64,000 bases of DNA, taken from contig NC_088307.1 of assembly GCF_032854445.1 (NCBI RefSeq), forward strand, positions 26,114,046-26,178,045, given 5' to 3'. Both the position numbers and the translations under genes were made by a program. Positions 1,829 to 64,000 of the stretch are shown piece by piece. The notes under the pieces were generated by a model. That model saw nothing but the letters and a program-made list of their open reading frames with translations, had not been told where the DNA came from and did no database searches. Each line of letters opens with the position of its first letter. Positions within the stretch are counted from its first letter, which is position 1. The stretch is from Liolophura sinensis (Eukaryota; Mollusca; Polyplacophora; Chitonida; Chitonidae).

Positions 1829-20406
<18,578 letters not shown>

Positions 20407-24596: not shown

Positions 24597-27500
24597 CTGG
24601 AAGGAGATGAGAAACTTCATTACAAATGCACGTCCTTCCTTGGTTTTATATGATGTGTCATTTTTCTGTCAATGTACCAATAGTGTCAGATTTTACAAGC
24701 GGTCCCTTCGGTTAAACATAAACAAAACGTGGCACAAGGCCTATATCTCCTCTGGCTTCCATGTATGCATTGCAGGCATCATGTACAGGGGTACATTTAT
24801 AACGACACAATGTGCAGAACACGCCAATTAAAGTGCGTACTCCAACATTTATGTGACCAAAATTCCACACAAGATATTTCAAAAATAATAACCATAAAAC
24901 GTTTGATACTTAATATAATATCGTGTGAACGGCCAGCATCAATAACACAATGAAAACACAGCTTTGGTTATTTATGTCTGGATTTGACTTTCGCACATGG
25001 CGACATCACTATTTTTGCCTAATTTTTAAGTTCGGTCGATCGTAAAAAATACCTTTAACGCGATATTTTGAGTTTGTTTTTCTTAGAAGGTAAAATGGCG
25101 GTAAGATGTTTTACTTAATAATGTGAGGTTCAGAACCAAAAGTAATATTGTATGACGTTTATTTGCGTCTAAGAATGTCCATTGTAAGGTTAATGTTTCT
25201 GTAAATACAGTAAGTTTCTTGTTTGCGGAATGACTGTGGTAATATCTCTTGATTAATTTTCTTTACCAAGTTGTGGTAATACAAATTGTTTCTGACATAT
25301 TCATGTATAACATACGAGAGGTAAAATAAAAAAGACCTTACTTCTGAAGGCATCTGCCTTGGAGAAACCGCTGTTAAGAAAAGCTGTCTGTAGGGTTGGA
25401 ACTAGGAGTGGGACGGTTCCTCCAATGTTTGTGCTGATGAAAAGATAGACGGCCACAGCGGCTGTTCGTGATGTTGGGGGTACCAGCTCGATGACGACGG
25501 TCAGCGTCACCCCCACCCACATCTCACCTGTAGGGTAATATTAAAGACTTAAAGCATGGAGAGTAAAACCAAAGCAGCGGAGGGAGTGTGATAGCTGGTA
25601 AATGGTCACACATTACCGGTAAAATACGGCCTCTTGTCAATTTACCTCACGGTTTTATTCCAACAGTTCGTGTAAATGCCTAAACAATAGCAAATTATAC
25701 ACACTCCTAACACAACAATAATTGCATAACACAATATGAAACATGAACTAAACCCTGGACAACTGTTTATGTAAATGCCCAAATAGCAGCACATTACACA
25801 CTCCGTACCACCCTGACTTGAGCAGAAATAGGTAAAAAGAAATTGCATGGTAATATAAAAGACGTAGAGCATGGAAAGTAAAACCGGAGCATTGACGACA
25901 GTGTGATAGACGTACAGCATAGAGAGTAAGACCAGAGCAGCGACGACAGTGTGATAGACGTACAGCATAGGCAGTAAAGCCAGAGCAGCGACAACAGTGT
26001 GATAGACGTACAGCATAGAGAGTAAAACCAGAGCAACGGCGACAGTGTGATAGACGTACAGCATAGTGAGTAAAACCAGAGCAGCGACGACAGTGTGATA
26101 GACGTACAGCATAGTGAGTAAAATCAGAGCAGCGACAACAGTGTGATAGACGTACAGCATAGTGAGTAAAACCGGAGCAGCGACGACAGTGTGATAGACA
26201 TACAGCATAGAGAGTAAAACCAGAGCAGCGACGACAGTGTGATAGACGTACAGCATAGTGAGTAAAACCGGAGCAGCGACGACAGTGTGATAGACGTACA
26301 GCATAGTGAGTAAAACCAGAGCAGCGACGACAGCGTGATAGACATACAGCATAGAGAGTAAAGCCAGAGCAACGGCGACAGTGTGATAGACGTACAGCAT
26401 AGAGAGTAAAGGCAGAGCAACGGCGACAGTGTGATAGACGTACAGCATAGAGAGCAAGACCAGAGCAACGGCGACAGTGTGATAGCTGGCAAATGCTCAC
26501 ACGTAACCGGTGAAATAGGGCCTCTTGTCAATGTACCTCATTTTTATTCTAACTGTTCATGTAAATGCATAAATAGAAGTAATTTGCACACCCAATATCT
26601 TTCACAACATGCACATATTAAAGCGTATGAAATTTTGGTTTTAGCTGGTCACACTATGAATTTGTTTTATGATTTCCGGTTGTTCTGCTTACAGGTTTTA
26701 TTAGTCTGCTGTCAATCAAATAGCCCTATATTTTCAGTATCTGTATTATCCTTATATCAACCCCTGGACGAGATAAAACAAGCCCTTTGAGGTTTCTGTT
26801 CAAGCCAGTGAGTAGTACATCACTAATTTATACTTTCTATGCATGTCTTTTTGTTGTTGTTGTTGTTCATGTATACATCTAATGCAGAAATGACTTCATG
26901 TGTCTTGCCGCATATCTGGCGAAATGAAAAATGGAATGAACAAGAAATTTAGCCCAGTTATTTTAATCCAAAGCCATAGGCAGACTTGGAAATACTTTTG
27001 TGTTATATAAAAAAAGCCGGGGTTTAGGAGACGACTAGAGCAGCGAAGACAGAGTGATCATTAATGGCAACAGCTAAATGTCACACGTATAGGGTGAAAT
27101 ACTGCCTCTTTGCAATTTACGCTTTTGTGCCACTGTTTACAGAAATGCTTAAATAGTATCAACTTAAACGCCCAAAAACTCTTCTTCGGGAGCAATGCTA
27201 TTGGGTGCTCACAGCCATCTAGACTTTCTACAGAAAATATAGGAATTGTAGTCCACTAATGTAAATCCAAAACCATGAACAAATATGGCTCGATTTAGCA
27301 AAGCAGATTGACTTACCAATAACGTAACTAGGAATTTGAAAGAAGTAGGCAGTTGGTGGAGAGACCACCAGTGTAGCAAAGGCAAAGGGTGCGGCCAGAA
27401 GCTGAAACAGTAAATGGTAAAACTGTGTGGCTCGTTTATTAAAGGATGTGACATTTCTTTCTTATGACATCTTTTCTGTAGCATTACATTATGACTGCCA

Positions 27501-40001: not shown

Positions 40002-43000
40002 CTGAAAATGTAACATCCATCATATTAAATGAATTGTCCACATACAATAAAAAGCATGGTAATGTACACTGGTATCCATTTTCTGCTTATTTAGAGTTTA
40101 CCTCGCTTTCATCATGATATCGTTTCTTTCTCAGCAGCAACAGACTTTTTCTGCACAGTATATATTTATTTATTTGACCGGTGTTAAAATGCCATGCTCC
40201 TGAATTTTTCACAAAAAATATCAAGGGAATCAGGTTTGGGGCGACTGAAGAGCCTGAAATAAATCAACAACCTTTGGCAACAACCTGACCGGTCTTGTGA
40301 TTTAAAAGCCACAACCAGTAAAAACAGAATTAAGACTTGATTGGTTAAAGACTGGACAGTCGCAACGGGCAAGCAATTTCTCTGTCTCAGCTTGCAAACC
40401 CCTCTTATTTTGTACAGCTAACTGACTTTAATAAAACCACACCAAAAGACAACAGTCTGAATACCTCACCCACTCACAAAGTATGACAAGTTTTTAAGCC
40501 CCTCTTTTTGTAGAGATAACTGACACTAATACAAACCACACCAAAAGACAACAGTCTGGACACCTCACCCACTCACAGTGTGACACTAAGTATTTAAGCC
40601 CCTCCTTTCTTGTAGAGATAATTGACTTGAATAAAAAAAAACCATCAAAAGACACCGGTCTGGACACCTCACCCACTCACAGTATGACCAGTATTTAAGC
40701 CTCTCTATTTTTGTAGAGATAACTGACTTCAACACAAAGCCATCTTAAGACACCTGTCTGGACACCTCACCCACTCACAGTATGACCAGTATTTAAGCCT
40801 CTCTATTTTTGTAGAGATAACTGACTTCAATAAAAAGCCATCTTAAGACACCAGCCTTGACACCCACTCACAGTATGAACCTAGTCAATAAGTACTAATT
40901 GGCACAATCAAAATACATTGAGACAAGAATGAAAAATTCATGTACATTTTATCTTGATAGACAAATTTTAACTTTAATGCCTAATACTAAGCATTGTGGT
41001 GCACTGTAAGATCTTTATCAATTTTTATTTATATCTGAAATGACTTCTTGGAACTGATCCAATCACAATGACCTTCTGATTTTCCACACTTTTCAAGGTC
41101 AGTAAAAGTAGATTTCAATTTCAAGGCTTTCCATTACATGTCCCGTGTGAAACCTGGTACCCACCTCGCAGAGCTGCAGCTTTGCTATTCCCTTGTGCCT
41201 CAAAAGCCTGCTGAAGAGGTGGAACCAGAAGGGGTAGAGCACCTCCTATATTTGTGATGATGAAGAGGTAGACAGCGACTGCACTGGCTCTGATTGACGA
41301 GGGCACTAACTCCACCACCACGGCCAAGGTGACCCCCACCCACATTTCACCTGGAAAACAAGATAATGCAAATGATAAAGACCCTGTGGACAATAAGATA
41401 AAGCAATTAATGACCATTGACCCCGGATAATAAGATAATGCAATTGATAATGACACTAACCTAAAATTGCTTTAACTAACAAAGTTCTACTGCTGTTAAT
41501 TAACCCAATCAACAACTCTATAAAAGGGTCACTGAAGTACTTTTTTTTTTCAATATGCCCAACAAAGTTCATTATCTGAAGAAATTTAGGACCATCAGAA
41601 TGCATTAGCCATAATTTTTTTTCCATCAATTGGACTTCTTGATATACATGAATATTGATTCCTTTGACATAAATGAATCACTGAATGGGTATAATTCAGT
41701 GATGCAATATAGGTATAGCACAGTGTAACTTTATGGAAATTCTTTCAATCTGCAAAATCTATACTTTGACACACATTTGCTGTAGGTAATTTTGCGGAGA
41801 CTTTCATCACAGTTATATACTTACACTCAACTGAGCTCAACACATGCAGTTCTCTTTGAGATGCCGATCTTATCATAATACCATAACATCAATTCTAACA
41901 AAAATCAAGAGATATAGGCTAAGTCAATGAATTCTGGGATTTATGGTAATCAGTATGTATTGAGGGCATCAACAGTGAACAGTGTCCAACTCATGGAATT
42001 CAGCTTCACATGTACCCAAAACCTGACTGCTATATAAACAGCGTGCTTGTAACACCACCCTTTCATTTATGAGTACCCTTTTTCTTCTCATTTTCAGGAC
42101 ACATATTAGCAGAGCTGAAAGCCAAAAAATTACATTTCTCTCCCAGTGTTTTTGAAAAGTAAAGATATGAATATGTTGTTCATTAGATGGACTAATCATG
42201 TAAAAAAAAAAAAGAAACTAATATCCCTGCTAAAATTACAAGTATATCGGCTGCAAAAAGCAGACTAGGTGTCCCAAAAGTCAGATTTGATTTGATTTGA
42301 TTTGATTGGTGTTTTATGCCGTACTCAAGAATATTTCGCTTATACGATGGTGTCCGGTATTGTAGTGGGAGGAAACCGGGCAGAGCCCGGGGGAAACCCA
42401 CAACCATCTGCAGGTTGCTGGCAGACTTCCCCATGTATGGCCGGAGACGAAGCCAGTACCAGCTGGACTTGAACTCACAATGACAGCATAGGTGAGAGGC
42501 TCATGGGTCATTGCGCTGCGCTAGAGCGCTAACCAACTGAGCCACGGAGGTCCCCCCAAAAATTAGAAGAAATAGGTAGCTCAACATTCCTGTCAATGCT
42601 ATTGCACATGGACACCAGGGGGTTAGAAGTGATTTAGGCCTAATCAGACTTATACCCTAATGCACAATCTTTTCACACATAAAGAGTGAATTTCAGTGCA
42701 ATTTATACACCTTTTTCATTTGATTTGGAAGACAAAACAACATTTGTTATATTGGCCAATTTCAGGGCTTCACAAAAAACAGAAGTTCATCAGTGTACAC
42801 AGACTAATACCCTCAGAATAAGCTTGAATAAAAACCTTGCACTTGCGAAAAAGGTTGAAGAATTACAGTAACTGAACATTACGCCTCAAAATACTTTATT
42901 TATATATTTGTTTGTTTATTTTTTTCTTTACATCATTTAAGAAAGTAAGTAAAATGCATTCAGCTATTGGAATTCTAAGGTGGGTTCTATAAGCCATGAT

Positions 43001-46000
43001 GACCTCACAATACCTTCTTGTCATGTTTGTGGGCATAAGTTAACTAATCTTTCACTAGTAGGCATTAAAGGTTATTCCTGCATTAAGAATCTATAGTCTC
43101 TACACTGATTAGCCTTTCATACACAAACTTTATCTTTAACTCTTTTCTAAGCACAGGAAAGGTTTGGCCACTTATTGGTAAATGCTTTTCATCAATTTTT
43201 TCTTAACCCATATAAATAAAGGTACATGTGTACTAGTACACAGCTCATAGTATTAATTTCTACGTGCATGTGCTTTTTTTAGCAACGATTTATACACGTA
43301 ACTGAAACACTCACCCAATAAGTATGTTGGTATTTGGCAGATGTATCCATAAGGTGGGTCAAAAAATAAAGTACCCGCTGCAAAAGGAGCAGCGCAAATC
43401 TGCAAACAGAAAGTCAGTGGAAGTTTGCAATGTAACTTAAAAGAATCTAACACATTACTGGATGAGAAACAACATTACTGGATGAGAAACAAACATTACT
43501 GGATGAGAAACAAACATTACTGGATGACAAACAAACATTACTGGATGACAAACAAATATTACTGGATGACAAACAAATATTACTGGAAGACAAACAAACA
43601 TTGCCAGATGAGAAACAAACATTACTGGATGAGAAACAAACATTACTGCATGAGGAAGAAACATTACTGAATGAGAAACAAACATTACTGAATGAGAAAC
43701 AAACATTACTGAATGAGAAGCAAATATTGTGGTCAAAATATCTATAAAGTGCATTGACATAAACAGAGATTAAGCTTATTGTAGTAGATGTGCTTATTTT
43801 ATTGGAGCTTAAAGTTGTACCCTAGAATACCTGACTAAATTCAGGTTAAACTATGTGAGGAGGGATCACGATGGAAAACACACTGCACACGACAAAATTT
43901 CCAAAGTCGTCCAAATCAACAAAATCAGAAAGAAAAACAAATTCAGGTACTTCAGAAATCTACATCCCATGCTAAAAATCAAAAGTTTATGTAGGGATCA
44001 ACTGATTCAAGATGGTTTTAAAACATGATCTGAATGGCCACAAAATGAATATGAACACAAAATTTTAATTAAATTAGGACAAAATTTGATGCATATATTG
44101 CATTGATTTATTTATTTATTTTTGATTGGTGTTTCATGCCGTACTCAAGAATATTTCACTTATCTGACGATGGCCAGCATTATGGTGGGAGAAAAGCAGC
44201 GGAGCCTGAGGGAAACCACAACTATCCGAATGATGCTGGCAGACCTTCCAACTTACGGCCAGACATAGCACTGAAGCCAACAAACTGTTAAAACACCCGT
44301 CACCACAGAGCTTTGAAATAAGCTCATCATAGATACATGTACTTAGGGAATAATTATAAAACTGAATGTTACCAGTACCTGACTAACAACTAAGACAAAA
44401 ACTCTGGCGTAAAGTCCCCGCCTCTTGACTATCCTGTCCGAGATAAAGCCGCCAGCGACCACACCCAAACTTCCTCCCACCAGAGGAATCCATCCCATAT
44501 AGGTGGCAATCTGGTCCGGGGTTTGCTGAATGGCCTGGAAGTAAGGCTGTGTGTTGTAGGCCCACACATATCCAGCTGTGGATAGGCAAAAAAGAAATTT
44601 AAGCAGGAATATTACAAAACACGAAATTGGTCTACTGCTCTACACAAAATGAACGATATTTGTTTTTCATCTTTTTTTAGATGCCTTGATGATTTTTTAC
44701 ACTTCAATGTGCCCGGCTGCACAGAAAAGTTTCCAAACATCTGACAGCACGAAAAACCAAAACAGTACGAAATGAGCTAAAATTTGAACAAAAGATGCCA
44801 AACAAATGCATTTTTAGAGCTATATGTAAATGAATGTCATAAAATCTTACTTACGATAGTGAATCTCACATTTCTCAAAAAGGAATCATCCTACATGTAC
44901 CTCAAAACACCTTTCAAAAGCTAAGATCAAAAGTACTCTGAGAATCAGGAAATTTGTGAAGCTCAGTGATGAACAAAATTTTAGATCGCTTACTGCACCC
45001 TTATATGAGACAGAGTATATAAAAGTGCAGTGTCATGAGATATGTTATCATTCAAGGTCGGCTGATCGTGTAATCTAATCAGTCCAATGACACAGCATGA
45101 ATTACTACCATAACAATAGTACAAGTATTACACTACAAACATAAACTTTCTATAAAAGAATGAAGAACACGGAATTATGTTCTTTGCTCCAATTGTTTGT
45201 GAGGTTTTGCTGACAAGAAGCGATCAACGGAGCTTGTGTGTTGCTTAGTGCAGTACAGTGTTTGTGGAAAAACCACGTGTATATTTGACTGGTGTTTCAC
45301 ACCACTCTTACATGTAAGAATATTTCACTTACACGACGACAACCATCATTATGGTGGGCCGAAACTGAGTAAAGCCCAGAGGAAAACCCACGACCATCCG
45401 CAGGTTGCTGACAGACCTTGTCACGTACGGCTGGAGAGGAAGCAAGGACAATCTGGACTTGAACTCAAAGCGACAGCATTGGTGAGAGGCTCCTTGGGTC
45501 ACTCTTGTTACGGAGGCCCCCTATTAACTGAATAAACAATAATGATGATATTCTTTTTTCACCTGCATTCCTGATAGACCCAGCTATGCACAGCATGATC
45601 AGCGATGGACTCAGAAACGGCTTCAGAATTGATGCCAGTTTGTGGCAAACTCCGCCCTCAACAGTCTGTAGATGGCCACTCCCCAAAGCCTTATTAGGGC
45701 GTAAGGGTTCTTTGAGTGACAGTATTATAACCAAGCCCAGAAGTACACCTGGTGCTCCACACAAATAAAATGCCCAGCGCCAACTCTGGAAAAAGGAAAA
45801 CAAAACATAAAAGAAATATTTCAGGAGTTAAAAATAAGATTTGATTTCGCTAATATATCAAGTCCAAGTCCAGTTTTAAAATTGCAAAAACAAAGTACTG
45901 TACACAGCTCATAAAGATTTTCTGACCGTTTCGATGGCCTACATGTAATTGTGAGAGAATGTGCCTTGAAGTAGAGAGATACGGGCTCAAATCTGGGCCA

Positions 46001-55169: not shown

Positions 55170-58100
55170 GTATGTGTGCCAGGCAGGTGTGCCAGACAGA
55201 TACCGGTAAACATATAGCCCAAGCTATATGTTCGACAATTGAGGACAACTGCACTAAAAACACAAAAAAACAACTCGAACCCTACCTTATTTTTTGCTAT
55301 CCACTGATTCCCTGAATCGAACAAACTGTAAACATGTCAAAGCTGGCATCGGTAGATCATATTTCTACATTAATCCAGCCATTTAACTTTTTAATCAGAC
55401 AACTCAGACCAGTGTCCACCATGTTTGGATTTCCACTTCGAGCAGGGTAATGGGCAGTGAAAATTTTATCCCAGGCAACAGTCTCTTTACAGGGCATGCA
55501 GTTCTGAGCACTTGTTCTGAATTTGTGCCTTTCATTCACTATGACACAAAAGATGTAGGTTCAAAACCCACCTTGAACAGGGAATCTGTAGATCTCTCAT
55601 TGTTTGTGATGCCTTGATGACAATAAGCTTTGATCCACACTCCTGTTTGTGCAGTCTAATGTTCCTGGTCATCCACAAATATGGTGTACAGATAGCATAG
55701 GAAAGTCTGTCAGCATCCTGTGGATGGTCGTGAATTTCCCCCATGCTCTGCCTGGTTTTCCCCACCACAATGCTATTGTATAGATAAAATGGTATGTTCT
55801 TTTGTCAGTAGTAGGGAGGTGGGGTTGTCCGGAGGAGACATGGGTGTGGCAGAGTCCCATCTCACAGGCAGCTCCCCATCGGCGACAGAGTTTCACCCTC
55901 ACATCCATGAGGACGCAGTCACAGCAGTTGCTGCTGTTAGGCCAGGAGTCTGCTTATCAGGAAGTAAAGATAAGGTACACGTACATGTATTATTTGGGTC
56001 TCACCTGCCACAATTAAAAGATTGAGGGAAAAGTTAAACAAGTATAATGAATGTGCAGATAAAACCCTTCCTTAATACTTTGTGTACTTTGCTAGTCTTT
56101 AAGATGCACTTTTTAGGACAGATTTGTAGGGAAAATACAGTTTATCCTGTTTCATCCATCGTGTTGGTGTCATGCATGTATTAGTGAATTAATTGAGGGG
56201 TAAGACATCAAACGCGCTATAAATCAAGCCTGGAAGTATTTTTTAAGGTGCTGCAGGACATAAAGAGCAAATCTTCCAGCTATTCACGTTGTTAAAAAAG
56301 TTACAATGTTAAGAAAGTTACAGTGTTAAAAAGTTATATTGTTACTGTAATACATCGAAGATTTGCCGTGTTTTGAACAGTTATCAAAATACTACTGTTC
56401 TGGTACTTATTTTAATGCTTGCTAATGACTGATTTATGTTGATCTGCAGGCTGTAATCCTTTATGACTTCAATTCCCATCAAGAACTACAAAGGTGGTTA
56501 GGCCACGAGAAGGAAGTGACCAAGGTAAGTCAGGTTTGTATGGCAACCTTGTTCCCCTCTATATTGTTACCATTGTCAGTGAATGTCATCTGACTAGGAG
56601 ACTTCATCTCATCGTATTCAAAGTTTCCTGACTGGCCCCAGTGGCTCATAGATCCAGGGTCAATCCAAGGTACAGTCACGACAAAGACCTTAAAAGAGGA
56701 AGTTGTAGCTTCATTGCTTCATTCACAGCCTGAAGGGAATAGTGCATTGACTGGTTGACCCGTATCTGTATAATAGCTCGGGTGGGGCGCCTTACTTGCT
56801 TTAGGTAAATCATCTTATTGAAGAGGCACTAGATAAAAGAGCAGTGGAAATCCATCTTGCAACAGGGAGACAGATTACATGTACATGCACACTTTGGACT
56901 CCTCATATGACTGAAAAATTGTAAAGTACAGTATTAAACCTTAAGCATTCACGCTCACTCACTCAAAGTTTCTTCAGGCATGAAATTCATGAGCACAGAA
57001 TCATGCATTAGAGCAAAATTTTTCTGTTATCAGATAGACCCAGGCTCATGTGTCAGTCCTATCACTTTGAAGAAAATTCACATTTGGTCCAAATATTTCA
57101 GCTTCCTCACATAGGCAGTTAGTCTATTTAGAATTCAGGAATTTGTGGTTTGTGAGCCTGCACGGCATAGTGGTTAGCATGCTAGCTCAGAACAATGACT
57201 CAGGAGCCTCTCACTTATGCAGTTGCTGTGAGTTAAGTCCAGATCATGCTGTCTTACTCTCTGAGCTGAGTCCAAGTAAATTATTTTTGAGTACGATCTA
57301 ACACACCATTTAGATAAACAAATAAACAGACTCAGGAGATGTGTGATCCTCAGTATAAATTACAAAGTACCTGTGATTAATTTTTCATAATGTTTGCGTG
57401 ATGAATTCGTTTATTTTATTTTTATTTACGCCATACTCAAGAGTATTTCACATACATGTATGTGGCAGTGGCCATCATTATGACGAAACCACAAAACCAG
57501 GCAGATCCTTGTGGAAAAGAGTAATCCACAAGTTAGTGGTAGACCTTCCCACATATGAACGGAGAGGCAGTCGGCATGACTTGGACTCACACCGACGGCA
57601 TCCGTGAATTTGTTCGTAATATGATTATTAACAGTAAGAAAGCACATGTAATGTCATTTAAAGTATGTTTTTTGTTTTGTAGGTGTTGTATGGCTCGTTG
57701 TCTGACCGGGTGTTCAGCGCATCACGTGACACGTCTATTCAAGTTTGGTCCCTGGGGTCAAAGGAGAGTCTGAGAAGTTTCACAGGACACAGCCTTGTGG
57801 TGACGTCTATTGATCTCAGTCCAGGTAAATAGTTAGGTGCTTCTTCAAATCATTGACCATGTATGTAAATTTTTTCTGCTTTTTATCTAGTTCAAGTAAA
57901 CAGTTAATACCTCTTCATATGGTCGTGGATTTCCCCCACGCTCTAACTGGTTTCCTCTCACCATAATGCTGGCCCCATCGTATAAGTGAAATATTCTTGA
58001 GTGCGGCATAACACACCATTCAAATAAGTAAATCAAACTCACATCTTCAGTCACGTCCATGCTTGTAAATATTACTGCCTTATATCTTAGCCCCTGTAAA

Positions 58101-61100
58101 TGCTACTTCTGGTCTGATTATTGTATTTCACCTAATGTTTTGGCTTTTTTCAGGTGACCAGTTTTGCTTGATTCTAGGTGATTTGTCCACCTTATAGGCT
58201 GGGTAACTAAAGAGTTTTTTGTAATGTTTGATTAATTTGTTACTAGAAAAACATAAGTGTTGACATATGAAGTATGATTTTAAGGCCTTTGTGTGTTTAT
58301 GAAAGTGCATTTTTAAGTATGACACTTTAGGTGAAATTCAGTACCACTGCTTTACGCCTTAGTTCAGGTACATGTAAATGGTTAAATGCTCTTGTCCAGA
58401 TCTTAGTCTAAGTCTCATGTAGGTATTAAAATGGTACTACTTTTGATCTTTTGTCAAGTAAATTTTACATCTTTACACCTTTCAAAAATAGTTAAGGGAA
58501 CTGCTACTTCGTAGATCTTTTACTTACATTTTCCAGAGATAGATATCAGTTCAGGTAATGCGACTTCATTGCATCCTACACTATACCATTTAAATACATT
58601 AAAAAAAAAGCTAGGTCTTCAGATCTTTATTTGGACATGTCAGGTAACTGTGACTTCTTTTGAGCTTCGTTCATGTACCTTACCAAATGTTTAGAGATTA
58701 GTTCTCGTAAATGGCACATGTTTGGATTAATGTATTAATTTGATTGGTGTTACTTTGTACTCAAGAATATTTCATGTACCCTCATTCTTCAACCTTTTCA
58801 ACCACCACTGCGACCAATATTTTGAACCATTCTGAGAGAGCTATGGGGTGGAGAAGAATTCTTTGCACCGTTTAATGAAGCTTGCATCTTTAGTGATACA
58901 AACAAACCATTTTTGGCATCATTTACGTGATAATTATATGCATAAAGCTCCACTGGAAAAAGTGTTTTAGTTGTGAAAAAGGTTGAAGATTTGCAGTAAG
59001 TATGCCCTTTCAGAAGCATATATAGGCTTCAAAATGATACTTTTTATGCCTGTGCTTTAGTTTTTCTGGTAACAAATTGATCAGACTTTACCAAAAACTC
59101 TTTAATGACTCTATAAGATGAATGTTTCAGCTAGAATCAAGCAAAATGTGTCACTTGGAAAATGGTGAAGTTTAGGTAAAATACAACGTATCATGGCAGC
59201 CAGCATTATGGATGGAAAACAAATAGGCAGGAACTAGTTAAACCCAGGAACATGGGCAGGTTGCTGACATACTTATTTCTTTAGATCTTAATGCAGGTAG
59301 TCATTTTTAGACATCTGTATATGGTAGCTGATACAGCAGTATGTTGGATTGTACATTTTCATGTAACACTTTAATATACAAGAAATAAATGTGTAACAGT
59401 ATAAAGCGTATCAGTACAATCTTGACCTCCTTTCGATATTTTCAGACGAGAAGCAACTGATATCGGGCTCACGGGATAACTCTGTCAGACTCTGGGATGT
59501 GGAAGCTTGTCAGCAGATACGACAGAACTGCATCTCACGTAACCTGGTCAGTCGTGCTCTTACCTTCATTCCTCAACCTTTTCGCTCGCCATGATACGGC
59601 TGAAATATTGCCAATGTGACATTCAGCCATAATCATTCATTCAACCTTTTCGCATTTGAAAGGGCAAGTTTCAGTGTGATTTAAGCTCCTTTTTTGATTT
59701 GACTCTGGAAACAAAGCTACATGTACATTGGTTGCCTTGGCCGAAAATGAGCCAAGTCTTGGCGCTTCACAGAAAGCACTATAATTTTGATAATCTACAA
59801 ATAAGAATTACTTCTGTATAGACTTGAGTAAGCACATTTGAAAAGTTGAAGAATCCTGAAAGCCTTGTTGTCTGCGCAGTCAGCCATAACATACATGTAC
59901 ATGTAGAAGTGTCACTGTTGCATATGCCTTATGGACTGTAGTGAGCGCAGTGTACTAGTCAGGCTACATCAGGCTTTCAGTTTCTCTAATGTTGTGGGGG
60001 TAGGCTTTCGTAGCGCATGCTGGCTTCCTCATGCTGGCCGTAGGTGGGAAGGTCTATCAGCAACCTGCAGATGGTCATGCGTTTTCCGCGGGCTCTGCCC
60101 GGTTTCCTCCCACCATAATGCTGGCTCCTATTGTATAAGTGAAATATTCTTGAGTACGGTGTAAAAACACCAATAAAATAGATAAATAAATAAATAAACC
60201 TAATATTGTGCTTCCTATGGCCTCGTAAGAAACACACGAATGCATGGATAACTGCTTCACATTTCAGGTGAACACGGTAAAGTGGGTTCCTGGCTCTGAC
60301 CTAGTAGTGCAAGGTGGAGAAGACAAGGAAGTCAGGTATGAGTTTGTAACTAGAATTTATATAATTTTGGAGGAAGTGCAGTCCAGAGTTTTGTTATGTC
60401 ATTCAAAATTACTTCTCAAAAACACCTAAAAGGGGAAAAAATCAGACAGAAACAAATTAAATTCAGCCTTTTTTATATATATTTAAAACCATGAATAGTT
60501 TTTCACCCTGAGTTTTAGTTCCTGTTGAAAACCCCATAAAAGAATGTACATGCATGTAGATTTTGCAGCTTTCATTTTCCTGTTTGAATCATTTTAGAGT
60601 TGTGAATGGAACCTTCTAATTGTCTGTTGTCTTAAAATCTTTTCTCACAAAAAAGTGAAATAAGGACCCTTGAAAAAGCATAACCTGCAAGCTGAAACTG
60701 CAAATCACGGGGGGCGTTGGGGGGTAGGGGACTCTATGGACTAGTGGTTAGTGTGCTAGCACACCAGAAAAAGCCAGGAGCCTTTCAGCAGTGCGATCAC
60801 TGTGAGTGTCCAGATCATGTACGCTTCCTGTCCAGTCATGTGTGTAGGAAGGTCTGCCAGCAACCTGAGGATACTCTTGGAGTTCCACAATTTCTTCTCA
60901 CCATTTTGCTGGTCGCCGTCATATAACAGAAATATTCTTGACTCAAGCATATACCGGCAGTCATGTAATTACAGTTTAAATACTGAATAAAATGTGTCTT
61001 GTTTTCAGAGTGTTTGATACCCGTACAATGGAAGTGGCCTTCTGTTTTCCCCGTAAGCAGTATATCCAGATGTGCAGTGATGTCAGCATTGACGGGCAGT

Positions 61101-62904
61101 ACTGTCTGACGTGTAGTAACGGGTTTGGGGGCAGCGGATGTGAGGCAACAGTAGGTGTGATAAATACATGTAGCCCTATATATCCTTGATTAATCCCATT
61201 TTCTGTTTGGCAGTTTTTGAGGATTTCACAGCTCCATCTTGGCTGGGACCTTGCTGATATTATTATAAGAAAAGACAACACAACAAATGTATATATGCAT
61301 TGATATAGGATACAACACCATCCACATAAACTTTCAAAAGCAAACCCTCTTTTTTTTTGATGTTACATAACAGAGATATTGCAATTCAAAGTAAGCAAAT
61401 CTGGCCACTTTGAGAAATCAGAAGCGCCACCATGGTGTCAAGTTCATCCACTCAGGTGGAAGTTATTTCTATAACCAAAAATGCAACTGTTTCTGTTGAC
61501 ATCACCTGGAACTTTTTTTGCCTTTTAGCGGTAAGAAAGGTAAGGTATGAGTGATGCAGCGCCATATTTCCACTTTCTCTAACATGATAGATCCCATCAT
61601 GCCATGGCTTCATAAGAATTCCTTCCAGTCCCGATAGCTCAGCTGGTAGAGCGTCCATAGGATGGTAGATCCAGGGTCAATCCTGGCGTGGGTCACACCT
61701 AAGACCTTGAAAGAGAAATTTGCAACTTCCTCGCTTGGCGGTCAACATTATCATGATAGTGCGACGACTGGGTGAATTACATTACCAGGTTCAATCCTGG
61801 GTCGGGTCACCACATAGACTTTGAAAGAGGAAGTTGTAACTTCCTTGCTTGGCGTTCAGCATTAAGGGCACAATGCAACGACTTGGTTGACCCGTATCAG
61901 TATGATGGCTCAGGTAGGGCGGCTTACTTTCCTTCGTTAAGTCGTCTCGATAAAAGACTAGATAAAAGAGCAGTGGAAATCTGTCTTGCAACAAGGAGGC
62001 ACATTACATGCACTCTTTGGACTCCTTCATTGTCATATGACTGAAAAATTGTTAAGTACGACGTTAAACTCCAGGCACTCACTCGCTCACTCGCTCATAA
62101 GAATTCCAGATTGGATTTAAAGGGTTAACAAATTTGACAGAACAAAATGCTGCCTCCGTTTACGCGGGTTTTCACCTTTCTCAAGAAATGTTAACGTTAA
62201 TTCATTTGTTGTCTTTTATTTCGGAGTTCACCTCTTTGCGCTCTTGTGTCTTCTTCATGAAGTTCTGTGGATATGACTTTAATAATTTCCTCCAATATTA
62301 TGTGTCACCTGTGGGAGAGTTCACCAGTTATTTACCAAAGGTCAGTGGTTTAGCACTGACGCTCTAGTTTCCTTCACCCATAACCCTGTTTGCCATCCTG
62401 TAAGATAAAAAAAGAATTCTTGAGTATGACATTAAGCAATGATCAAATAAGTTAAATTACTCACCATCTAATATGTAAATAACACAATATGCAACTAGAT
62501 AACAATCTTCTTTGTGTGTTGGTCAAATTCAGCTCTGGCTGTGACTTTAAAGTCAACAGGCTTGTCAGGTACCAAGCGAAGTTTTGTGGTTTATTCTTGG
62601 TCACTTCAGTTCCCTCCACCCATAATCCTATTTGCTGTCATGTACATCACCAATTAATAATAATAATTAGTAATCAAATTAATAAATATCAATGAAAGTT
62701 TCTCGAGTATGACGTTATACACCAGTCAAATCAATCTTGTATTGTTACAGCTGTGGGATCTACGGACAAGGAGCCTAGTATCAGAGTACAGAGGTCACAC
62801 GGAGGCTGTTGAGGGCTGTGCTTTTCTCCCCCACAGGGATGGCAAGTTACTGGTGACCAGCTCTCGGGACTGCAGTGTGAGAATCTGGGATCGCAGTACT
62901 AAGG
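55129..62904 (+). CDS. WDR31: WDR31-like WD40-repeat protein, 8 visible exons, 3' end unresolved
   Basis: WD40 beta-propeller protein. Order and spacing of motifs match WDR31, a protein linked to cilia in animals. Exons: 55129-55169 (ATG), 55809-55974, 56450-56524, 57683-57824, 59446-59546, 60268-60335, 61009-61150, 62751-62904 or further. All junctions are GT-AG and in frame, giving about 296 residues. The start MGKFFSKPKKNK has Gly2, Ser6 and a basic run, an N-myristoylation pattern. WD-like blades: KDKAVILYDF (about 67-76), SRDTSIQVWSL, SRDNSVRLWDV, EDKEVRVFDT and SRDCSVRIWD, with GH dipeptides before several. GFGGSGCEATLWDL spans the last junction and is a WDR31 hallmark. Human WDR31 goes on for about 60 residues; those are not seen before exon 8 sequence is tandemly repeated. 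Introns hold SINEs. Transcribed away from gene D. Confidence 0.85.
55700..55800 (+). repeat. SINE type 1 remnant beside exon 2
   Basis: Ggaaagtctgtcagcatcct, ggatggtcgtgaatttcccc and ctctgcctggttttccccac match the SINE body; it ends about 10 bp before the exon 2 acceptor. Confidence 0.75.
55809..55974 (+). CDS. WDR31: WDR31-like exon 2
   Basis: 166 nt. Encodes a low-complexity linker, then HIHEDAVTAVAAVRPGVCLS and GSKDK (first blade). An alternative acceptor three bases on (cagtag) would keep frame. Confidence 0.85.
56450..56524 (+). CDS. WDR31: WDR31-like exon 3
   Basis: 75 nt, phase 0 both sides. Encodes AVILYDFNSHQELQRWLGHE and KEVTK; acceptor gatctgcag, donor AAG/gtaagt. Confidence 0.88.
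56628..56962 (+). mobile_element. SINE type 2, full length with 10-bp TSD
   Basis: tRNA-like head (ccccagtggctcatag), ctggttgacccgtatc body, tail gactgaaaaattgtaaagta. Flanked by tcaaagtttc at 56618-56627 and 56963-56972. In intron 3 of the WDR31-like gene. Confidence 0.9.
57155..57325 (+). repeat. SINE type 1, internally deleted
   Basis: Head agcctgcacggcatagtggt, caggagcctctcacttatgc, then directly gagtacgatctaacacacca tail; the body is missing. Confidence 0.78.
57405..57615 (-). repeat. SINE type 1, diverged
   Basis: Tail cgccatactcaagagtattt, body ggtagaccttcccacatatg and gacttggactcacaccgac. Confidence 0.78.
57683..57824 (+). CDS. WDR31: WDR31-like exon 4
   Basis: 142 nt. Encodes VLYGSLSDRVFSASRDTSIQ, VWSL, and GHSLVVTSIDLSP. 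Confidence 0.9.
57910..58035 (+). repeat. SINE type 1 tail
   Basis: Atggtcgtggatttccccca through gtataagtgaaatattcttg and gagtgcggcataacacacca. Confidence 0.8.
58040..59445. other. Rest of WDR31-like intron 4
   Basis: AT-rich. A small SINE tail sits near 58735-58780 (tgattggtgttactttgtac). Nothing else recognised. Confidence 0.45.
59446..59546 (+). CDS. WDR31: WDR31-like exon 5
   Basis: 101 nt. Encodes DEKQLISGSRDNSVRLWDVE and ACQQIRQNCISRNL; donor CTG/gtcagt. Confidence 0.9.
59995..60205 (+). repeat. SINE type 1, 3' part
   Basis: Gcatgctggcttcctcatgc, atcagcaacctgcagatggt, tataagtgaaatattcttga and a (taaa)n end. Confidence 0.85.
60268..60335 (+). CDS. WDR31: WDR31-like exon 6
   Basis: 68 nt. 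Encodes VNTVKWVPGSDLVVQGGEDK and EV plus two bases; acceptor catttcag, donor TCAG/gtatga. Confidence 0.88.
60722..60990 (+). repeat. SINE type 1, diverged
   Basis: Head ggggactctatggactagtg, aggagcctttcagcagtgcg, body ccagcaacctgaggatactc and tail tcatataacagaaatattct. Confidence 0.75.
61009..61150 (+). CDS. WDR31: WDR31-like exon 7
   Basis: 142 nt. Encodes VFDTRTMEVAFCFPRKQYIQ, then CSDVSIDGQYCLTCSNGFGG and SGCEAT; donor ACA/gtaggt. Confidence 0.92.
61623..62095 (+). mobile_element. SINE type 2 with internal duplication, 12-bp TSD
   Basis: Head ccgatagctcagctggtaga (good A box) and ggtcaatcctgg B-box-like. The segment with gtaacttcc and cttggcgttcagcatta occurs twice, about 110 bp apart. 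Flanked by cataagaattcc at 61611-61622 and 62096-62107. Confidence 0.9.
62310..62455 (+). repeat. SINE type 4 copy
   Basis: Ttaccaaaggtcagtggttt, ctctagtttccttcacccat and ttcttgagtatgacattaag; tail related to SINE type 1. Confidence 0.65.
62550..62740 (+). repeat. SINE type 4 copy, diverged
   Basis: Cacttcagttccctccaccc, then (taat)n, then tcgagtatgacgttatacac and cagtcaaatcaatc. Ends about 10 bp before the exon 8 acceptor. Confidence 0.55.
62751..62904 (+). CDS. WDR31: WDR31-like exon 8 (first unit of array)
   Basis: Encodes LWDLRTRSLVSEYRGHTEAV, EGCAFLPHRDGKLLVTSSRD and CSVRIWDRSTK. Possible donor AAGG/gtaagg at 62905; without splicing the frame reads on through a second unit to a TGA at 63095. 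Confidence 0.75.
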
Positions 62905-64000
62905 GTAAGGGGTGCCCAGCGTGTGGGAATGAAGGGTTGTGTCAGGTCTGCAAGGGTCACACAGAGGCTGTTAAGGACTGTGCTTTTCTCGCCCACAGGG
63001 ATTGCAAGTTACTAGTGACCAGCTTCCGAGACTGCAGTGTGAGAATCTGGGGTCACAGTACTAAGGGTAAGGGGTGCCCAAACGGGTGGGAATGAAGGTT
63101 GTGTCAGTCTGCAGGACAGAGGCTGTTAAGGGCTTTCCTTTTCTCCCCCACAGAGATGACAAATTACTAGTGACCATCTCCCGGGACTGGAGTGTGACAA
63201 TCTGGGATCACAGTACCAAGGGTGAGGATGTCCGTGGGCTGGGGTTGTGTCAGTGGACGGGGGTCACAAACAGGTTGTTGAGGGCTGTGCTTTTCTCCCG
63301 CAACAGGGATGTCAAGTTATTAGTGACCAGCTCATGGGACTGGAGTGTGACAATCTGGGATTGCAGTAGTAAGGGTATTAAGAGTGCCCATAGAGTGAGC
63401 ATGGGGTTTGTGTGAGTGTACAGAACTCACACAGATGATGTTGTGGGCTATGCCTTTCTCCCCCCACAGGATGTCAAGTTATTAGTGACCATCTCATGGG
63501 ACTGGAGTGTGACAATCTGGATTGCAGTAGTAAGGGTATTAAGAGTGCCCATGGAGTGGGCATGGGGTTTGTGTGAGGGTACAGAACTCACACACATGAT
63601 GTTGTGGGCTATGCCTTTCTCCCCCACAGGGATGTCAAGTTATTAGTGACCAGCTCATGGGACCTGGAGTGTGACAATCTGGGACTGCAGTAGTAAGGGT
63701 ATTAAGAGTGCCCATGTAGTGGGCATGGGGTTTGTGTGAGGGTACAGAACTCACACCACATGATGTTGTGGGCTATGCCTTTCTCCCCCACAAGGATGTC
63801 AAGTTATTAGTGACCAGCTCATGGGACTGGAGTGTGACAGTCTGGGACTGCAGTAGTAAGGGTATTAAGAGTGCCTATGGAGTGGGCATGAGGTTTGTGT
63901 GAGGGTACAGAACTCACACAGATGATGTTGTGGGCTATGCCTTTCTCCCCACAGGGATGTCAAGTTATTAGTGACCAGGCTCATGGGACTGGAGTGTGAC
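62790..64000 (+). repeat. Tandem array of a WD40-coding exon-intron unit, about 160 bp
   Basis: Eight units; the equivalent ggat(g) points lie near 62837, 62998, 63153, 63306, 63468, 63629, 63793 and 63954, giving periods of 153 to 164 bp. Each unit has a Gly-His-Thr-type start, tttctcccccacag, the WD blade (agctc, gggactg, agtgtgac or agtgtgag, atctggga) and an aagggta run. Units 5 to 8 are more alike than units 1 to 4. The array continues past the window. Confidence 0.93.

Follow-up and report, generated by a model that had tools for sequence, protein, structure and literature searches.

Several described systems come close to the locus considered here. In tandem exon duplications, the copies that lie outside annotated exons are reported to sit in introns (Ivanov and Pervouchine 2022, PMC9013439). 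Intron 6 of TERT harbors VNTR6-1, a variable number tandem repeat (VNTR) with a 38-bp unit (PMC11830802), and in Caenorhabditis elegans the intronic minisatellite CeRep25B is enriched beside multiple alternative splicing sites (PMC4039745). The kringle IV type 2 VNTR of LPA is composed of 5.6-kb units that generate protein isoforms (PMC6314250, PMC11462820), and in an earthworm metallothionein gene the exon copies were described as not represented in the transcript (PMC12783039). The locus analysed in this work lies at the end of a 64,000-nucleotide stretch of contig NC_088307.1 of the chiton Liolophura sinensis (the window, whose numbering is continued past 64000 for the DNA that follows it) and consists of a tandem array built from the edge of an exon of a WDR31-like gene. 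This array is very probably an intronic, exon-derived minisatellite that caught an exon edge and is mostly inert, rather than a new protein-building device. No description of it appeared among the entries listed by literature searches, although one may have been published.

The analysis of the window with Tandem Repeats Finder disclosed, on the forward strand at positions 62786–64000, a tandem repeat with a period of 162, 7.6 copies, 85% matches, 4% indels and a score of 1385. The array continues beyond the window end; in the downstream stretch of the same assembly (L009, in which a position is the window position minus 62654) the same program returned 8.4 copies of 163 bp with a score of 1603, the copies being arranged head to tail as in a minisatellite. 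The alignment resolves ten head-to-tail units at 62786–64284, whose lengths are, in order, 162, 162, 148, 160, 161, 163, 163, 163, 120 and 97 bp, units 1–8 being full and units 9 and 10 broken. Unit 1 (62786–62947) comprises the exon copy in use and the intron start; it is followed by unit 2 (62948–63109), unit 3 (63110–63257), unit 4 (63258–63417), unit 5 (63418–63578), unit 6 (63579–63741), unit 7 (63742–63904) and unit 8, which occupies 63905–64000 in the window and reaches 64067 (L009:1413), whereas the broken units end at 64284 (L009:1630); all of them are on the forward strand. The original prediction, made from the letters of the window, had proposed at least eight copies of an exon-plus-intron unit of about 160 bp, which is confirmed; the unit lengths of 153 to 164 bp that it gave agree with the start-to-start spacings of successive copies in the window (162, 155, 153, 162, 161, 164 and 161 bp). 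A search of the assembly at the DNA level placed the window at 26114046–26178045 of contig 13 and gave at least eight matches, every one inside the array and none elsewhere, these counts being lower bounds. N is absent from the window and from both stretches following it (L009 and L010).

The repeat unit corresponds to the final 119 bases of coding sequence in exon 7 of the host gene plus the first 43 bases of the following intron. The array had been supposed to begin at 62751; the repeat actually begins at 62786, that is, 35 bases within exon 7, and the first 35 bases of this exon (62751–62785), located behind its true acceptor, are outside the repeat, as is the true acceptor itself. What is copied with each unit is an acceptor-like stretch embedded in the coding sequence, where it reads Phe-Leu-Pro-His-Arg, together with a donor; the segment between this inner site and the donor of unit 1 (62837–62904, forward strand) is the template of the 68-nt pseudo-exon bodies contained in the copies.

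The host gene can be modelled on the forward strand as nine exons, located at 55840–55974 (with a start ATG proposed on the basis of its being in frame), 56450–56524, 57683–57824, 59446–59546, 60268–60335, 61009–61150, 62751–62904, 64646–64715 (L009:1992–2061) and 67380–67464 (L009:4726–4810). Exon 7 ends with the donor AGG/GTAAGG at 62904/62905, and its portion 62786–62904 supplies the coding sequence of unit 1. All the phases of the model are consistent, the junction between unit 1 and exon 8 included, and the product has 323 residues without interruption. In this model, the exon that had been regarded as the last visible one is the seventh of nine, two more being located beyond the array. 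Since a direct junction of unit 1 with exons 8 and 9 yields an uninterrupted protein, the array, whose units 2–10 fall between exons 7 and 8, is embedded in one predicted intron and is dispensable for the protein. Three roles had been proposed for it, i.e., extra blades by read-through, a ladder of cassette exons, or a non-coding satellite; the last one is the best supported, because the phases agree where unit 1 is joined to the exons beyond the array.

The 323-residue protein matches the Pfam WD40 profile (PF00400) with 120.5 bits, the cut-off being 27, and the gene is probably a cilia gene; its designation as WDR31-like in the original prediction is judged right. A published account presents WDR31 as a ciliary protein with WD40 repeats (PMC10200814). 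An alignment to an approximate sequence of human WDR31 is colinear and has 138 identical positions out of 300 (46%) and five gap positions; in the same alignment no blade is missing or extra, and a single blade separates the two landmarks on either side of the array. A search of the PDB with the protein retrieved other WD40 proteins and designed propellers, and none was named WDR31 among the matches listed (60 of 640).

On this basis, the following sequence of events may be proposed. A stretch including the end of exon 7 and the intron start would have been tandemly duplicated in the chiton gene and would then have grown to about ten units, probably by unequal exchange. The donor of unit 1 is most likely joined to exon 8 at 64646, and units 2–10 would leave with the 1,741-base intron, the protein remaining a normal propeller. 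Their removal by splicing may allow the copies to persist, and they would decay in a nearly neutral way. Side products might arise, namely a poison exon from unit 2 or 3 and, by way of unit 2, a form with eight blades.

The comparison of the units revealed that units 5–8 are 94–99% identical among themselves, with unit 4 sharing 87–90% identity with them. Units 1, 2, 3 and 10 are 70–84% identical to the other units, with the exception of unit 9, which is 62–68% identical to units 1–4 and 10 and 77–80% identical to units 5–8. Such a pattern, young in the centre and older at the edges, is the one that unequal exchange gives. The ratio of nonsynonymous to synonymous substitution rates (dN/dS) calculated versus unit 1 is 0.37–0.71, which a constraint on unit 1 would explain; for units 2–8 it is defined in 18 out of 21 pairs and ranges from 0.32 to 2.83. 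Since each unit has just about 39 codons, these tests have a low power and weak constraint is compatible with the data; at this power, the copies show no clear sign of constraint on their coding sequence. A hint from the first alignment, according to which the blade would be more conserved than the linker, was abandoned, the pairwise realignment showing no consistent difference between the two (blade and linker identities of 87% and 90% for units 1 and 2, 87% and 82% for units 2 and 3, and 82% and 90% for units 3 and 4).

Concerning the splice signals, the acceptor-like motif can be recognised in each of the ten units, as the original prediction had claimed for every unit; nevertheless, its exact form, tttctcccccacag, is present in units 1, 3 and 6 only, and its CAG has been lost in unit 7 (cacaagg) and unit 9 (ccaaaggg). 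The succession of a GTAAG donor in the early units and a weaker gtatt donor in the later ones had been correctly described: at the usual place of the unit, the donor is GTAAGG in units 1 and 2 (at 63067 in the latter), GTGAGG in unit 3 and GTATTA in units 4–8. No copy of it was found at this place in the broken units 9 and 10, and unit 9 carries a different donor-like site, GAG/GTAGGC. The strength of the sites was estimated with a crude count, i.e., the number of pyrimidines out of 16 for acceptors and of consensus matches out of nine for donors. Donors score 7/9 in units 1–3 and 5/9 in units 4–8, the eight real donors of the gene (that of unit 1 included) scoring 6–9/9. The other introns of the gene (8.9 kb) contain 15 YAG sites (Y being a pyrimidine) with at least 12 pyrimidines and 29 donors with at least seven matches. 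Single decoys of equal quality therefore exist elsewhere in the gene, even though eight such acceptors in 1.5 kb are still dense.

As predicted, unit 2 is in frame: an open frame at 62667–63095 spans units 1 and 2, the distance between the two units being exactly 162 bp with no stop, and their donors are identical (CTAAGG/GTAAGGG). Among the seven read-through donors at the usual place, that of unit 2 is the only one in frame to the normal stop, with 54 additional residues and a 377-residue product; the other six products are ended by the stop at 63093–63095, in the linker behind unit 2. As for cassettes, the inner acceptor cuts after the second base of a codon and the donor after the first one, so that an unaltered unit included as a cassette shifts the frame. 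Six acceptors with a downstream donor were combined with seven donors, units 7 and 9 being excluded as devoid of the CAG and unit 10 having an acceptor without a donor copy. Of the 26 single-cassette combinations, 25 break the frame, and the remaining one, which uses unit 5 alone (66 nt), stays open as far as the normal stop; with a pseudo-exon from unit 2 or unit 3 included, 277 residues precede the stop. A wider count over the intron (donors with at least 5/9 matches, acceptors with at least 9/16 pyrimidines, cassettes of 20–600 nt) left in frame 4 out of 242 cassettes, none of the ten having strong sites at both ends, and 2 out of 71 read-through donors. One of these two belongs to unit 2; the other, at 62955, is weak (5/9) and adds part of the intron stub only.

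The linkers of units 4–8 all contain gtttgtgtgag (5/5), which reads TGA in the blade frame and ends the frames of units 4 and 7. With the WD40 profile, the frame over units 3–4 reaches 23.5 bits and unit 7 reaches 19.2 bits, both below the cut-off, and the frame at 63416–63643 (units 5–6) gave no match. A coding array with all units translated, as in LPA, was rejected in view of the stop behind unit 2, the TGA in the linkers of units 4–8 and the indels of several units. Of the extra blades that had been envisaged, at most the one of unit 2 is possible, longer products being ended by the stop in its linker, and no clear constraint on the blades is seen. The ladder of cassette exons is disfavoured, given that 25 out of 26 and 238 out of 242 combinations, and all ten of the strong ones, break the frame and that the true acceptor is absent from the unit. 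In the same way, the two features of tandem exon duplications used as alternative exons are both missing, since one of the two splice sites has not been copied and the frame is not kept on inclusion.

Some observations weigh against a mostly inert satellite. The acceptors of the array, scored in eight units, have 12–16 pyrimidines out of 16 versus 9–13 in the eight real acceptors of the gene, and units 2 and 3 have donors with the same score as that of unit 1, so that a clean skipping of the array is not guaranteed. Unit 2 passes the Pfam WD40 cut-off (28.8 versus 27 bits, at 62907–63092). Pfam counts just three WD40 stretches in the whole protein, the seven blades, exon 7 being the sixth, resulting from our own reading of the sequence. 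Moreover, no stop has arisen by substitution in the blade frame of units 2–8; the missing stops were set aside as a sign of selection, because 11.6% of the runs of a neutral simulation (started from unit 1, with tree support of 28 to 97) also gave none. Together with the donors present in units 2 and 3, the strong inner acceptors might suggest an array of poison exons, in which the 68-nt pseudo-exons are spliced in and lower the WDR31 output, perhaps in a regulated manner; the premature stop following the inclusion of unit 2 or 3 and the broken frame of every strong-site cassette speak in favour of it. Even so, the weaker donors of units 4–8 and the loss of the CAG in units 7 and 9 fit decay and not a maintained device, which renders this explanation unlikely. 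The donor of unit 2 might also replace that of unit 1, with the translation of the intron stub giving an isoform whose 54 additional residues form an eighth WD40 repeat. The stop-free spacing between units 1 and 2, their identical donors, the product open to the normal stop and the WD40 match of unit 2 point in this direction; on the other hand, the protein encoded by the canonical exons is already full-length and agrees with the approximate human WDR31 sequence without any additional blade. Furthermore, the dN/dS of 0.45 between units 1 and 2 (nine nonsynonymous and five synonymous changes) has been obtained with unit 1 itself presumably constrained, and the openness of unit 2 is weak evidence, since 55.3% of the neutral runs keep an open frame. 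Such an isoform appears quite improbable. It is very doubtful, finally, that the number of units with strong acceptors and GTAAG or GTGAG donors tunes poisoning or the gain of an eighth blade and, through them, the amount or shape of WDR31 in different individuals.

According to a further explanation, the copy number or the single-base indels would result from assembly errors. The genome paper, published under the name Liolophura japonica, reports PacBio HiFi reads with a mean length of 8,347 bp, a depth of 14x and a size of 609.5 Mb (PMC11068029), and the species was renamed L. sinensis by a correction (PMC12441733). This depth, if the assembly is that one, would favour the occurrence of errors, and so would the high share of single-base indels in units 5–8, where 6 of the 17 variable columns are of this type and 11 are substitutions, as well as the fact that 22 out of the 35 Tandem Repeats Finder rows of the window have 0% indels versus the 4% of the array. 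However, the many substitutions between units make a spurious duplication unlikely, the 1.5-kb array is far below the mean read length, the window, L009 and L010 are free of N, and another long-unit array of the window (40399–40871) has 5% indels. An artefact is thus very improbable, and the single-base indels of units 5–8 may be either real or low-depth errors. The intronic minisatellite remains the preferred reading; the array, the gene model and the frames have been shown, the choice of splice sites, the way in which the array grew and the nearly neutral state of its copies being inferred. In line with this reading, units 4–8 exhibit weak donors, single-base indels and broken frames.

To sample the repeat background of the genome, 20 pieces of the same contig were analysed, each of 10 kb and one of them with 200 N. 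Minisatellites with a period of at least 10 cover 20,959 out of 200,000 bases (10.5%), a density that weakens the claim that a gene-derived satellite with both coding and splice signals preserved is unusual. Among the 78 sampled arrays, 26 have at least five copies, and one has both a period above 100 and at least five copies; this array (L025:1275–2603) consists of seven copies of 189 bp with a 98% match and is not coding as a whole, at least 32 stops being present in each of the six frames. The coding share of the genome is roughly 6%, as obtained from its size and from the 28,010 coding genes with a mean length of 447 residues that the genome paper reports (PMC11068029). Assuming one long-unit array per 200 kb, a very uncertain figure based on a single case, exon-touching arrays should arise many times in the genome even if selection removes most of them.

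Other repeats were observed in the window and next to it. The region 61629–62090 is occupied by a repeat with a tRNA-like head, a tail with a cactcactc-type run and an internal 114-bp tandem duplication (61671–61887), which we take to be similar to a short interspersed nuclear element (SINE), ARAGORN detecting no tRNA gene in it; similar pieces are found near 56640–56970 and at L009:3960–4240. In the whole window, neither a match to Rfam at gathering thresholds nor a tRNA gene (ARAGORN) was found. The minisatellites at 9117–9669, 16107–16485, 25860–26485 and 43452–43728 have units of 42, 48 (96), 48 and 21 bp, respectively, and each of them has at least one stop-free frame on the minus strand; the second and the third, which are separated by about 9.4 kb, have almost identical 48-bp units (acgtacagcacagagagtaaaacc etc.) and perhaps belong to a dispersed minisatellite family. 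Shortly after the stop codon of the WDR31-like gene, a 75-bp direct duplication with a 98% match (L009:4970–5122) represents a second, recent tandem duplication at the locus.

The array illustrates how the edge of an exon can be taken up by a minisatellite while the gene is left intact, as copies confined to the intron can be tolerated during their drift. If the units were used in RNA, they would represent a natural series for the way in which repeat number alters splicing.

As in intronic minisatellites and VNTRs, the units are arranged head to tail within the intron of a gene, where they could affect splicing and their copy number is expected to vary; unlike TERT VNTR6-1 and CeRep25B, the chiton unit itself holds coding sequence of the host gene and a splice donor. 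The LPA repeat unit contains introns; the chiton array resembles it in that the tandem unit includes coding sequence, and differs from it in that most copies are out of frame and their removal by splicing is probable. As in earthworm metallothionein, duplicated exon copies are predicted to be absent from the transcript; that report treats the minisatellite and the exon copies as distinct features (PMC12783039), whereas in the chiton they form one array. The presence of exon copies within their own gene is shared with tandem exon duplications (PMC9013439); yet the duplicates employed as alternative exons, or as mutually exclusive ones, have working splice sites, whereas in the chiton the true acceptor is uncopied and the frames mostly fail. 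On the whole, this comparison suggests that the array is related to tandem exon duplications and would work like an intronic minisatellite whose unit derives from an exon edge.

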